A model generated the notes under the pieces. The model was not told where the DNA came from. It saw only the letters and a list, made by a program, of their open reading frames with translations, and ran no database searches. This document shows, in pieces, positions 36,963 through 40,181 of a stretch of DNA of 64,000 bases. Position 1 is the stretch's first letter, and each line of letters begins with the position of its first letter. This stretch comes from Amycolatopsis sp. 195334CR. Lineage in GTDB: Bacteria; Actinomycetota; Actinomycetes; Mycobacteriales; Pseudonocardiaceae. The translations under genes and the position numbers were made by a program. The stretch lies in contig NZ_JAFJMJ010000001.1 in the NCBI RefSeq assembly GCF_017309385.1, positions 4,766,411-4,830,410 on the forward strand, written 5' to 3'.

Positions 36963-38162
36963 TCAAGATTTCGCAACCCGCGGCACGGCGGCTCCCGATT
37001 TGACCGCTTCGAGCGCATCGTCCCAGGGCATCGGCTCGCGCCTGCTCCCGTCGCGCAGGCGCAGGGCGACCTCGGCCCGCGCGGCTTCGCGGGCGCCGAT
37101 CACCGCCTGGAACGGCACCAGCCTGCCGTTTCGCACGCGTGCGCCGAGGCTGCCCTGTTCCTCGATCTCCGCCCGCAGACCCAGATCGACGGCGCGATCG
37201 GCGAATTCCCGTGCGCTGCCGGATGTGGCTTCGGAGATCGGCAGGACCAGCACCTGCACGGGCGCGAGCCACGCCGGGAACGCACCGCCGTGCCCCTCGA
37301 CCAGGTGCGCGACGGCGCGTTCCAGACTGCCGATGATGCTCCGGTGCACCAGCACCGGCCGGTGCTTCGCGCCGTCCTGGCCGACGTAGTGCAGGCCGAA
37401 CCGCTCCGGCTGGTGGAAATCGACCTGCACGGTGGACAGGGTCCATTCGCGACCGACGGCGTCGGCCAACTGCACGTCGATCTTGGGGCCGTAGAACGCC
37501 GCTTCCCCTTCGACGGCTTCGTAGTCCATGCCGTCCAGTGCTTCGCGCAGCACGGCTTCCGCCCGCCGCCACATTTCCGGTGCGGCGACGTACTTCCCGC
37601 CGGCACCGGGCAGGGAAAGGCGATAGCGGGCGGGTTTGAAGCCGAGGTGGTCGTAGGCCTGGCCGATCAGGTCGAGCGCCGCGCGGACCTCCGGTACGAC
37701 CTGTTCCGGCGCGCAGAAGATGTGCCCGTCGTTGAGCTGGATGGACCGCACGCGGGCCAGGCCGCCCAGCACGCCGGACGCCTCGGCCCGGTACATGCCG
37801 CCCAATTCGGCCAGGCGCAACGGAAGTTCGCGGTAACTGCGCCCGCGTGACCGGTAGATCAACGCGTGGTGCGGGCACAGGCTCGGCCGGAGCACCACCT
37901 GCTCCTCCCCGAGGTCCATCGGCGGGAACATGTCGTCGCGGTAGTGCGCCCAGTGCCCGGAAAGCTCGTACAGCTCCCGTTTCCCGAGCACCGGCGAGCA
38001 CGCGTGCCGGTAGCCGGAGCGGCGTTCGGCGTCGCGGAGGTACTCCTCCAGCGCGTGCCGGACGGCGGCTCCGGCGGGCAGCCAGTACGGCAGGCCGGCG
38101 CCGATCAGCGGATCGCCGCCGAACAGGCCCAGTTCGCGGCCGAGTTGCCGGTGGTCGTGCAT
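36963..38162 (-). CDS. Threonyl-tRNA synthetase lacking the editing domains
   Basis: The protein has 399 residues, against about 640-690 for housekeeping ThrRS. The TGS and editing domains are absent, and the class II core plus anticodon-binding domain remain. The zinc ligands are kept: Cys in LRPSLCPHH, His in NDGHIFC and His in LVHRSIIG. Motif 2 reads YRAE and motif 3 GSLERAVAHL. It has a strong GGAGGAG site and a Thr-rich leader peptide with a terminator hairpin upstream. Stand-alone catalytic ThrRS forms are known as drug-resistant copies in antibiotic clusters and as a zinc-responsive second enzyme in cyanobacteria. The former is my preferred guess. Confidence 0.93.
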   Translation of the reverse strand: MHDHRQLGRELGLFGGDPLIGAGLPYWLPAGAAVRHALEEYLRDAERRSGYRHACSPVLGKRELYELSGHWAHYRDDMFPPMDLGEEQVVLRPSLCPHHALIYRSRGRSYRELPLRLAELGGMYRAEASGVLGGLARVRSIQLNDGHIFCAPEQVVPEVRAALDLIGQAYDHLGFKPARYRLSLPGAGGKYVAAPEMWRRAEAVLREALDGMDYEAVEGEAAFYGPKIDVQLADAVGREWTLSTVQVDFHQPERFGLHYVGQDGAKHRPVLVHRSIIGSLERAVAHLVEGHGGAFPAWLAPVQVLVLPISEATSGSAREFADRAVDLGLRAEIEEQGSLGARVRNGRLVPFQAVIGAREAARAEVALRLRDGSRREPMPWDDALEAVKSGAAVPRVAKS

Positions 38163-38203
38163 GGTGGTCTCCTCCCGCCGGGGAACGGATGACCACGTGA
38201 CAA

Positions 38204-38227
38204 AGCCCGGGGCACCCGCCCCGGGCT
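38204..38227 (-). terminator. Attenuator hairpin in the thrS leader
   Basis: Perfect 10-base arms AGCCCGGGGC and GCCCCGGGCT with a 4-base loop are followed on the minus strand by TTTG. It lies between the Thr leader peptide and the ribosome site of the ThrRS gene. A further TGACCA/TGGTCA pairing can extend the stem. Confidence 0.75.
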
Positions 38228-38244
38228 CTGGTCACTGCAGGGAA

Positions 38245-38295
38245 TCAGCGCGCCGGGACAGTCTCCGGCGTCGTGGTGACGGCTGCGCGCTTCAT
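38245..38295 (-). CDS. Thr-rich leader peptide controlling thrS
   Basis: The 17-codon frame encodes MKRAAVTTTPETVPAR and a stop. Four of 16 residues are Thr, three in a row. An inner dyad, CGCCGG and CCGGCG, covers the codons just after the Thr run and can form the 1:2 pause hairpin. Its second arm (CCCGG) could instead pair with CCGGG of the terminator's first arm. Stalling at Thr codons when Thr-tRNA is scarce would then favour read-through into the synthetase gene. The ribosome site is weak (GTGGAA). Confidence 0.7.
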   Translation of the reverse strand: MKRAAVTTTPETVPAR

Positions 38296-38326
38296 GGGTT
38301 CCACGATATCCCCGGGTGCAACGGAA

Positions 38327-39199
38327 TTACCGCTGCGCCCACTGGAGCATGAACTTGCCCCACGGGTCGTCGGGCCTGCTGACCGCGATCGCCACCGCCA
38401 TGCCCCGGCACCAGGCCCACAGGCGGTCGCGGTCGACGCCGGGGATCCGCTCGCTCAGCAGAGCCACGTTCCGGCGCGCGGTTTCCTCGTCGGTGACCCC
38501 GTCGAGCGCCCAGTCGACCAGGTCCATGGTCTGGTCGCCCAGGCTTGGCCGAGGATCGATGGCGACCAGTCCGCGCCCGTCGCCCGCGCGCACGAGGTTG
38601 CCCGCGTGCAGGTCACCGTGCACCAGGCCGGGCGTGCCGCTGGACGCCAGTTCGAGGCAGGCCGCGCGGCCGTCGGCGAGCAGGCCGGGCAGGAAGTCGT
38701 ACGGCGGTAGCTGCCGCGCGCGGACGTCCATCAGGTCGAAGATGAACTTGACGCGTTCGGCCAGCGTCGGCAGTTCCGCGTCGTCCGGCGGGCCGACCCG
38801 GACCGCGGTCAGCAGCGGGGTGACCTCCTCGAGCGACCACGCGGAATCGGCCAGGGTTTCCGGGCTGGGCAACCATTCCAGCAGAACCGCGCCCCGGTCG
38901 GGCTCGGCTTCGAGGAGGTCGACCACCTGCCGGACGCCCGCCCAGCCGCGCAGCGCGACGGCCTCCTGCCGGGCGACCTCCGGATCGGGCGTCAGCTTCA
39001 GCACGGCGTGGCCGTGCTCGGCGGATTCACAGCGCAGCACCACGGAATTGCTGCCCGCCGGGAGCAGGTCGAGCGGGCGCAGGCCCCAGGCACCCGCGAA
39101 TTCGGCGATCAGCGCGTCCAGTTCGTCGCACCACGCGGCGGCCGCGGTGCCGAACCGCTGCACGAGGCGGGCACGCGACGAATCCGGTAGCACGATCAT
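38327..39199 (-). CDS. APH(6)/hydroxyurea-kinase-type phosphotransferase
   Basis: The protein has 290 residues of the streptomycin 6-phosphotransferase-like family: LLPAGSNSVVLRCES, AVLKLTPDPEVARQEAVAL, LVHGDLHAGNLV with catalytic Asp, and AIDPRPSLGD. Known relatives inactivate streptomycin or hydroxyurea. It starts seven bases after the glycosyltransferase stop, so the two are one operon, and the special ThrRS follows. Drug modification is likely, but the drug is unknown. Confidence 0.88.
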   Translation of the reverse strand: MIVLPDSSRARLVQRFGTAAAAWCDELDALIAEFAGAWGLRPLDLLPAGSNSVVLRCESAEHGHAVLKLTPDPEVARQEAVALRGWAGVRQVVDLLEAEPDRGAVLLEWLPSPETLADSAWSLEEVTPLLTAVRVGPPDDAELPTLAERVKFIFDLMDVRARQLPPYDFLPGLLADGRAACLELASSGTPGLVHGDLHAGNLVRAGDGRGLVAIDPRPSLGDQTMDLVDWALDGVTDEETARRNVALLSERIPGVDRDRLWAWCRGMAVAIAVSRPDDPWGKFMLQWAQR

Positions 39200-39206
39200 G
39201 CGGTCA

Positions 39207-40181
39207 TTATGGGAGGAACTCGGGCAACCGCTGAGCGATTTTCTCCGGCGACGGCATCGCGGCGATCTCCGCCTGTACCGATCGCGCGGCTTCCCGATAG
39301 CCGTTTTCCCTGGGGGACAGCAGTTTCCGCGCGTGGTCGGCAATCTCCTCGGTGGTGCCGGTGAGCCCGGCGCCGGCGGCGCTGACCGCGTCGGCGTTGG
39401 CGAACTGGTCGGCGCCCTGGGGCAGCAGCAGTTGCGGCACGCCGGCAGCGAGCGCGCCGAGGGTGGTGCCGCTACCGCCGTGGTGCACCACCAGGTCGGC
39501 GTGGGGCAGCAGGTCCGCCTGCGGCACCCAGGACCGGACGGTGACGTTGGCGGGCACGTCCCCGAGCTGGTCCGGCGTCACCCGTCCGGTGGCGACCACC
39601 ACCTCCGCGTCCAATGCGGCCAGTGCGTTCACGGCGGTGGTGAGCAGTTCCGCGGTGCCGAACGCGGTGCCCAGGGTGAGGTAGATCAGCGGTTTCGTGT
39701 GCTCCACCCGCCACGGTTCGGGTGGGGAGAACGGCACCGGTCGCACCGGGATGCGCCGGCCGTTGTCGAGGAAGTCCTTGTCCTGCAAGGAAGGCGGGCA
39801 GATGTCGAAATGCGGCCGGTCGGGGGCCACGGCCATCGGCAGTTCGAGGCCGATGCCGGGCGGGACCATCCGGCCGAACCCGTGCCAGATCCCCGGGATC
39901 CCGGCGCGGGTCGCGGCGATCGCGGCGCCGGGCAAGCCCCATTCGTGCACCACCAGGTCCGGCCGCAACCGGTCCAGTTCGGGCGCCAGGTCCTCGGCGT
40001 AGATCTCGTAGAAGGAGTCGGCGGGCCGGAACGGCCGCAACCCGTTCGCCGCGAGCGGGGCGTGGACCTCCTCACCGGCGGCGAAGTGCACCTCGTGCCC
40101 GGCCGCCCGCACGGCGATCGCCAGCGGGATGAGGGGATAGGTGTGACCGACCGACGCCAGGCTGGCGAAAAGCACGCGCAT
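39207..40181 (-). CDS. GT1-family glycosyltransferase (macrolide-transferase-like)
   Basis: The protein has 324 residues of GT-B fold: FASLASVGHTYPLIPLAIA at the acceptor domain, WVPQADLLPHADLVVHHGGS, and GVPQLLLPQGADQ, the nucleotide-sugar signature. It is shorter than typical 390-430-residue macrolide or antibiotic transferases. The N-terminal domain appears trimmed between residues 60 and 100. It may inactivate an antibiotic by glycosylation. The ECF42 gene ends nine bases upstream and the kinase follows by seven, which suggests one stress-driven transcript. Confidence 0.87.
   Translation of the reverse strand: MRVLFASLASVGHTYPLIPLAIAVRAAGHEVHFAAGEEVHAPLAANGLRPFRPADSFYEIYAEDLAPELDRLRPDLVVHEWGLPGAAIAATRAGIPGIWHGFGRMVPPGIGLELPMAVAPDRPHFDICPPSLQDKDFLDNGRRIPVRPVPFSPPEPWRVEHTKPLIYLTLGTAFGTAELLTTAVNALAALDAEVVVATGRVTPDQLGDVPANVTVRSWVPQADLLPHADLVVHHGGSGTTLGALAAGVPQLLLPQGADQFANADAVSAAGAGLTGTTEEIADHARKLLSPRENGYREAARSVQAEIAAMPSPEKIAQRLPEFLP

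Follow-up and report, generated by a model that had tools for sequence, protein, structure and literature searches.

A predicted threonine-type transcription attenuator before a second, editing-less threonyl-tRNA synthetase gene in Amycolatopsis and related actinobacteria

In Amycolatopsis sp. 195334CR, the gene of a second, editing-less threonyl-tRNA synthetase (thrS2, enzyme ThrRS2) is preceded by a short leader ORF with consecutive Thr codons and by two conserved hairpins. This arrangement is most probably (at roughly 85%) a Thr-specific transcription attenuator of the classical, ribosome-mediated kind. The initial annotation had proposed an attenuator at this place, and the proposal is well supported by the conserved leader and hairpin and by a predicted transcription start at the leader. 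Coordinates refer to the window, i.e., the whole analyzed stretch of 64,000 nucleotides, and the features of the unit lie on its minus strand.

In the proposed mechanism, the transcript would start at the leader ATG. With ample charged Thr-tRNA, the ribosome would reach the leader stop codon and cover region 2, upon which the 3:4 hairpin would end transcription. Upon shortage of the Thr-tRNA reading ACG, the ribosome would stall on the Thr run, region 2 (GUCCCGG) would pair with region 3 (CCGGGGC), the terminator would not form, and thrS2 would be transcribed. The most economical view of thrS2 is that of a spare enzyme for Thr-tRNA shortage, which in many species is also raised by antibiotic stress. 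The weak U tract and the statistics of the 2:3 helix, both described below, were counted against the attenuator, as was the case of ilvB in Streptomyces coelicolor, where the presumed regulatory codons could be changed without effect (cited in PMC1262725).

Leader, promoter and conservation of the unit

The leader ORF (38295-38245, minus strand) begins with ATG at 38295, comprises 16 codons and TGA, and its predicted translation is MKRAAVTTTPETVPAR. Sequence reading agrees here with the Thr-containing 17-codon frame of the initial annotation: the peptide has four Thr, three of them consecutive, and the regulatory codons of the run are ACC ACG ACG (38269..38277). The predicted translation thus shows the short ORF expected of an attenuator, with a run of codons for the amino acid that the downstream enzyme handles.

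The short ThrRS was found by protein search (E up to 1e-115) in 53 of 80 same-genus genomes and in 98 of 390 genomes of the family Pseudonocardiaceae, a set which includes Saccharopolyspora, Allokutzneria and Streptoalloteichus. One 155-aa match (L076, genome G073) was set aside, and G073 is counted among the 27 same-genus genomes without thrS2. The claim of the initial annotation would have failed without conservation before orthologues. A Thr leader is located upstream of thrS2 in all 98 family genomes having the enzyme, and in the same 98 the leader is followed by a hairpin with 7 or more pairs. The leader is also present in 78 of 80 named loci (the best 80 of 572 relatives) from Streptomyces, Streptosporangium, Microbispora, Kitasatospora and others; in L171, a named locus without a counted leader, the contig begins inside the leader. 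A locus of Streptomyces inhibens (L113:1-155) has the hairpin and ThrRS2, and no leader is seen in the available 155 nt, at which the contig starts. In pairwise comparison of 75 loci of the best 80 of 572, the upstream kilobase was similar in 20 of 2775 pairs and the element in all 2775.

A covariance model (R1) was built from 61 elements, all from the family, and run with fast filters and 45 candidates scored per genome. At E below 1e-9, it returned the same 53 same-genus genomes as thrS2, at the same places, and gave neither a strong match nor a leader in the 27 same-genus genomes without the short enzyme. Since 25 of the 53 genomes supplied rows of the model, matches in these were bound to occur; this does not apply to the absences or to the finding of one strong place in each genome. 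A comparable leader at the main thrS was rejected by the same scan, as the sole strong match in each genus genome is that of thrS2. Sixteen of the 24 weak same-genus matches that follow the 53 strong ones were read: 12 turned out to be hairpins lacking a Thr leader, and L199 and L201-L203 look like coding sequence, also with no Thr leader. Two of the remaining eight fall on the thrS2 leader, but on its opposite strand. Some weak matches (L189-L193, L195, L196, L198 and L204) represent a second conserved hairpin, AAAGCCCGGGGC...GCCCCGGGCTTT, which in several of these genomes closes a different gene and looks like a plain terminator.

In 396 genomes of the phylum, 9 of 12 R1 matches precede a short ThrRS, including three (L211-L213) at 48-56% protein identity. 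The other three (L214-L216) were discarded, with no ThrRS match and no Thr leader seen. A protein search of the same 396 genomes gave 12 enzymes judged short, all with a Thr-rich leader, the upstream regions of 14 of 29 returned loci having been read; the leader was recognized by looser criteria in L222, L226 and L227. The frames of L223 and L224 continue without a stop well beyond the upstream end of the ThrRS match, and the locus of G783 (L233) begins at a contig end. The counts given below for 184 elements combine 98 family, 78 named (of the best 80 of 572) and 8 phylum elements, with L208-L210 excluded. There are 169 distinct leader-to-terminator sequences among the 184, five named loci carrying the same sequence as family loci, and codon and residue counts include duplicates.

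The Thr codons of the leaders were aligned as the initial annotation had advised, and they proved conserved: a run of at least three Thr occurs in 181 of 184 leaders, two leaders have two Thr, and one has an interrupted run (TAT). Of the 98 family leaders, 95 have three consecutive Thr, L078 and L093 have two, and L033 is the one with the TAT codon. Divergent leaders keep the Thr run and not the remaining peptide, the ending VPAR being replaced by LRRIV, SGAR, SGVHV or VPEV. Where VPAR is retained, it is spelled GTC CCG GCG CGC in 165 of 165 leaders; flanking ORFs choose those codon spellings in just 41-56% of cases.

The -10 box TATCGT (38303..38308) ends with a T located 8 nt ahead of the ATG of the leader, and a leaderless transcript is predicted. 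A TAnnnT box with the last T 7-8 nt before the leader ATG or GTG was detected by script in 182 of 184 elements, the background frequency being 0.06% per position; the two missed elements (L147, L183) show by eye the same box ahead of a longer leader. Most start sites of WblC-activated promoters in S. coelicolor are located 7-8 bp below the -10 box (PMC7157823), and from this spacing the mRNA is probably leaderless, with translation of the leader ORF beginning at its 5' end. For the homologous thrL leader of S. lividans, RNA-seq put the start at the leader itself, also leaderless (PMC8079986). The conserved -10 box thereby places the predicted transcription start at the leader start codon, and the transcript would contain the leader. 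This predicted position speaks against a start below the leader, which the initial annotation had named as incompatible with its proposal.

Hairpins and the candidate switch

Region 1, GCGCGC (38285..38290), identified by the fold, the helix table and covariation, forms the 5' arm of a protector or pause hairpin, whose 3' GCGCGC arm (38248-38253) overlaps region 2. Region 2, GUCCCGG (38253..38259), can either pair as antiterminator with region 3, CCGGGGC (38218..38224), in the 5' arm of the terminator, or overlap the 1:2 hairpin. The 3:4 terminator-like hairpin (38204..38227), AGCCCGGGGC-GGGT-GCCCCGGGCT, is a perfect 10-bp stem with the loop GGGT. The inner dyad and the 10-base terminator hairpin with TTT, both described in the initial annotation, were recovered from the sequence. 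There are three T in a row at the hairpin end if the last stem base is counted, and GTC follows. The U tract is weak, and a generic terminator scan missed the hairpin because it needs at least 5 T.

The 165-nt RNA folds at -86.3 kcal/mol as compared to -69.0 (sd 4.5) in shuffles (z -3.84). Covariation was scored in an alignment of 61 elements (A2) against 500 shuffles that ignore kinship. Both the 1:2 and the 3:4 helix have four pairs with double changes, and either score was reached by 0 of 500 shuffles, uncorrected for kinship. The pair of hairpins typical of attenuators, a protector (1:2) and a terminator (3:4), is present. Both sides of the outer 1:2 stem are changed in L097 and L099, and L212 has a different 1:2 stem of nine pairs.

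The seven-pair core of the 2:3 helix is complete in 171 of 182 elements and imperfect in 11. The script took the best-pairing CCGG blocks; L176 and L226 miss one block, so that 182 elements were counted. The version GUCCCGG/CCGGGGC is found in 160 of 182, the partner CCGGGGU in seven, AUCCCGG/CCGGGGU in two, and other fully paired versions in L212 and L213. In some divergent helices, A-U replaces G-C, and U-A or A-U replaces U-G; L074 and L101 have the exchange of G-C for A-U at the outer pair. Within A2, the helix is 98.6% paired, observed and shuffled alike, with two cells showing a double change, and its score was reached by 469 of 500 shuffles, i.e., there is no excess covariation. Being nearly invariant, the antiterminator receives no proof from covariation. 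The duplex energy beats 95% of shuffles in two of 16 listed elements and barely reaches that level in one more, and when 2:3 partners were swapped, the native pairing ranked third or lower in 7 of 10 divergent elements; these energies are mostly like those of shuffles and were rejected as proof of 2:3. The frozen synonymous sites of VPAR are, as far as sequence comparison goes, a stronger sign of constraint at the RNA level than the covariation or duplex energies of 2:3.

Constrained folds of the window RNA were calculated on the assumption that the ribosome occludes 12 nt counted from the A site. When the RNA was cut after region 3, the 2:3 helix formed at -23.3 kcal/mol if the ribosome stood on either of the first two codons of the Thr run and at -15.8 kcal/mol on the third, and it did not form with the ribosome at the leader stop. 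The ribosome-free RNA of this length also formed 2:3 (-27.8 kcal/mol) rather than 1:2. With region 4 present, the 3:4 hairpin formed in every fold tested, the stalled ribosome included. Since 3:4 wins once region 4 is present and ribosome-free RNA also forms 2:3, the switch would have to be kinetic. Of the three foldings advised by the initial annotation, 1:2 and 3:4 hold and covary, and 2:3 pairs in folds of the RNA cut after region 3 but without excess covariation.

No Rfam family matched the window at its gathering score, and T-box was absent from the six sub-threshold matches at the site. A T-box riboswitch was rejected on the basis of these structure and sequence models for both the window and the site, and assignment to a known RNA family was likewise rejected, the best candidate being Ms_IGR-5 with 25.3 of 45 bits. 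This sub-threshold match is full-length (38196-38317, minus strand). Ms_IGR-5 is an actinobacterial sRNA family, which may itself be a two-hairpin leader.

The short synthetase and the codon split

The ribosome-binding site GGGAGGAG (38176-38169) and the thrS2 ATG at 38162 are located where the initial annotation had seen a ribosome site before the ThrRS. The gene (36963..38162) encodes 399 aa, in which Pfam recognizes tRNA-synt_2b and HGTP_anticodon only. NCBIfam thrS (TIGR00418) gives 429 bits with a cut-off of 384, and the match begins at profile position 171. Neither a TGS nor an editing domain is therefore recognizable, as had been described; ThrRS2 is not a full-length bacterial ThrRS with both domains. 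Residues C334, H385, H511, R363, Y462 and R520 are kept in all aligned ThrRS2 covering them. They belong to the catalytic and Zn-binding residues of ThrRS (E. coli numbers). Since the examined residues are kept, ThrRS2 is probably an active enzyme.

Leader and enzyme gene use Thr codons in opposite ways. In 184 leaders, 523 of 585 Thr codons (89%) are ACG, and the last Thr of the run is ACG in 182 of 183. In 138 ThrRS2 genes, ACG makes up 0.8% of 1226 Thr codons, as compared to 35.4% of 8752 in flanking ORFs (353 ORFs of at least 200 codons from named-locus flanks, picked by length and GC3, not annotation) and 20.3% of 251 in 14 main ThrRS gene cores. No other four-codon box of the ThrRS2 genes differs in this manner from the flanking ORFs. 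ACG is absent from 86 of 91 ThrRS2 genes with at least 8 Thr codons and from 1 of 348 flanking ORFs. Thr is scarce in the enzyme as well, at 2.39% (n=136) versus 4.51% in main cores (n=33), with 1.34% (n=47) in the family of the window. The window protein has 3 Thr among its 399 residues, and its gene is without an ACG codon. Seven divergent thrS2 genes show weaker avoidance, ACG forming 9.3% of their 86 Thr codons, with five ACG in L227.

In the scanned stretches, the genome of the window has one tRNA-Thr gene each with the anticodons GGT, CGT and TGT; four of 48 tRNA matches were not read by ARAGORN. According to Elf and Ehrenberg, leader codons are chosen for the isoacceptors losing charge first (PMC1183508). 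The codon split and the Thr-poor enzyme fit a switch that fires when the ACG-reading tRNA-Thr loses its charge, with a gene still translatable at that time. With few Thr codons, almost only ACC and ACT, read by tRNA-Thr(GGU), thrS2 appears tuned for translation in Thr-tRNA shortage. This can be extended tentatively, at somewhat less than even odds, to an isoacceptor-split emergency circuit. The ACG run of the leader would read tRNA-Thr(CGU), perhaps with UGU, and thrS2, cleared of ACG, ACA and most Thr, would be made via tRNA-Thr(GGU) at the very time when the isoacceptor being sensed carries no Thr. Leader and gene would then be the product of joint evolution, in many species tied to the WhiB7 antibiotic response.

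The genome of the window also has a ThrRS core, 44% identical to ThrRS2, in a 753-codon frame (G000:C3:420883-422094). In G000, G003 and G054, the main ThrRS scores like that of genus genomes without thrS2 (44% to the query), and the thrS2 promoters (L006-L008) are without the A-rich box; late gain or retention of thrS2 in these genomes is possible.

Known systems and rival explanations

The thr operon attenuator of E. coli controls biosynthesis genes. Like the unit described here, it senses Thr-tRNA by Thr codons, but its eight regulatory codons are ACC (PMC1183508), whereas those of the thrS2 leaders are mostly ACG. The trpS and leuS attenuators of Streptomyces (Seliverstov et al. 2005, PMC1262725) share with it a cognate-codon leader before an aminoacyl-tRNA synthetase gene and belong to the same phylum, but concern amino acids other than Thr; the same survey reported no conserved RNA structure upstream of threonine operons. 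The nearest relative is thrL-thrS of S. lividans TK24 (SLIV_19412/SLIV_19410; Droste et al. 2021, PMC8079986). It likewise has a Thr leader ending in VPAR (MKRVRPFLETTPGFVPAR), a leaderless start and a single hairpin without a U-rich tract before a ThrRS gene, but two Thr in the run versus three in the window. Judging from leader and gene order, SLIV_19410 is presumably a short enzyme.

A Thr attenuator before thrS is therefore not new, the S. lividans leader having been called an attenuator in 2021 (PMC8079986). The authors call its termination unclear, and in the accessible text of their paper no thrL antiterminator, cross-genome comparison, codon analysis or statement on a short paralogue was found. 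The codon split between leader and thrS2 appears to be new: a search mostly of literature outside subscription journals gave no earlier description of the split, of the link to the short enzyme or of the conservation, nor, in a narrow search on this point, of the mirror codon pattern. What was a short entry for one Streptomyces strain is thereby extended to a regulatory unit that is widely conserved and whose promoter, leader and hairpins are defined. From it follows a prediction of the conditions under which these actinobacteria should express their spare ThrRS.

Antibiotic stress is brought in by S. coelicolor, where a second ThrRS gene, thrS2, belongs to the WblC/WhiB7 response to translation-targeting antibiotics generally and is listed as WblC-activated with lysS, alaS2 and trpS (PMC7157823, Table 1). 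The accessible text of that study gave no mention of an attenuator. This thrS2 is presumably SCO3778, named threonyl tRNA synthetase in PMC10771440; a text search of PMC7157823 counted SCO3778 and SCO1531 once each, and neither was found in its main text. The leader could accordingly be imagined as a general translation-stress sensor, which stalls under many translation-targeting antibiotics and, together with WblC/WhiB7 promoter control, supplies Thr-tRNA. WblC boxes are placed 3 nt upstream of -35 (PMC7157823), and about where they are expected, 26-36 nt before the -10 box, AAA is present in 91 of 182 elements versus 2.2% of background windows, and exact GAAAWY in 33 of 182 versus 0.1%. Half of the relatives thus share TAnnnT and an A-rich box with the promoters of the regulon, but the promoter of the window has neither AAA nor GAAAWY at that place, and divergent leaders keep the ACG-biased Thr run, not the rest of the peptide. 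The general sensor is considered rather unlikely; Thr attenuation and WblC control do not exclude each other.

The initial annotation had ascribed to the unit an on-demand resistance circuit against a poisoned main ThrRS, which would be a plausible role. Under dedicated self-protection, thrS2 would be a drug-tolerant spare for an inhibited main ThrRS, e.g., under borrelidin, and would be switched on by the resulting uncharged tRNA-Thr. In the obafluorin producer, a second ThrRS beside the housekeeping enzyme, ObaO, confers self-resistance, and a change of Gly463 leads to resistance to both obafluorin and borrelidin (PMC11252418). ObaO has Ser in the place of Gly463, and its construct covers residues 241-637 of an apparently full-length form (PMC11252418), whereas the window enzyme is short and keeps Gly463. 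This residue is Gly in 136 of 136 ThrRS2 covering the position, and it was rejected as a resistance mark. Of 136 ThrRS2 covering position 489, which is close to the inhibitor pocket, 132 have Gln there, and the main enzyme of the window genome (L002) has Leu, but Gln also occurs in 21 of 33 main enzymes, and dedicated self-protection is considered unlikely.

The leader ribosome might instead govern translation, the region after the hairpin folding over the thrS2 ribosome-binding site. GUGGUC at 38196-38191 can pair with GACCAC beside this site, and the site is mostly paired in local folds of 150 of 164 spacers (no shuffle control). RNAalifold, however, gave no consensus structure for the spacers, on which ground sequestration was rejected, and the terminator helix itself covaries; translational control is accordingly improbable. 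An ordinary terminator of the upstream kinase gene combined with a chance ORF is hardly credible. The stop codon of that gene lies just 31 nt before the leader, and hairpins of this sort also terminate other genes of the genus, but a -10 box is located between the kinase gene and the leader, the leader is conserved at the codon level, and the upstream sequence differs while leader and hairpin stay in the 75 named loci among the best 80 of 572. The transcription attenuator of the Thr type is the preferred reading.

The kinase gene (38327-39343, minus strand) is related to APH(6) aminoglycoside/hydroxyurea phosphotransferases, its score being far below the NCBIfam APH(6) cut-off. At 39207-40181 (minus strand), a 324-aa macrolide-type (MGT) glycosyltransferase is encoded. 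Its match to the family profiles is largely confined to their C-terminal half, so it is a shortened or diverged family member.
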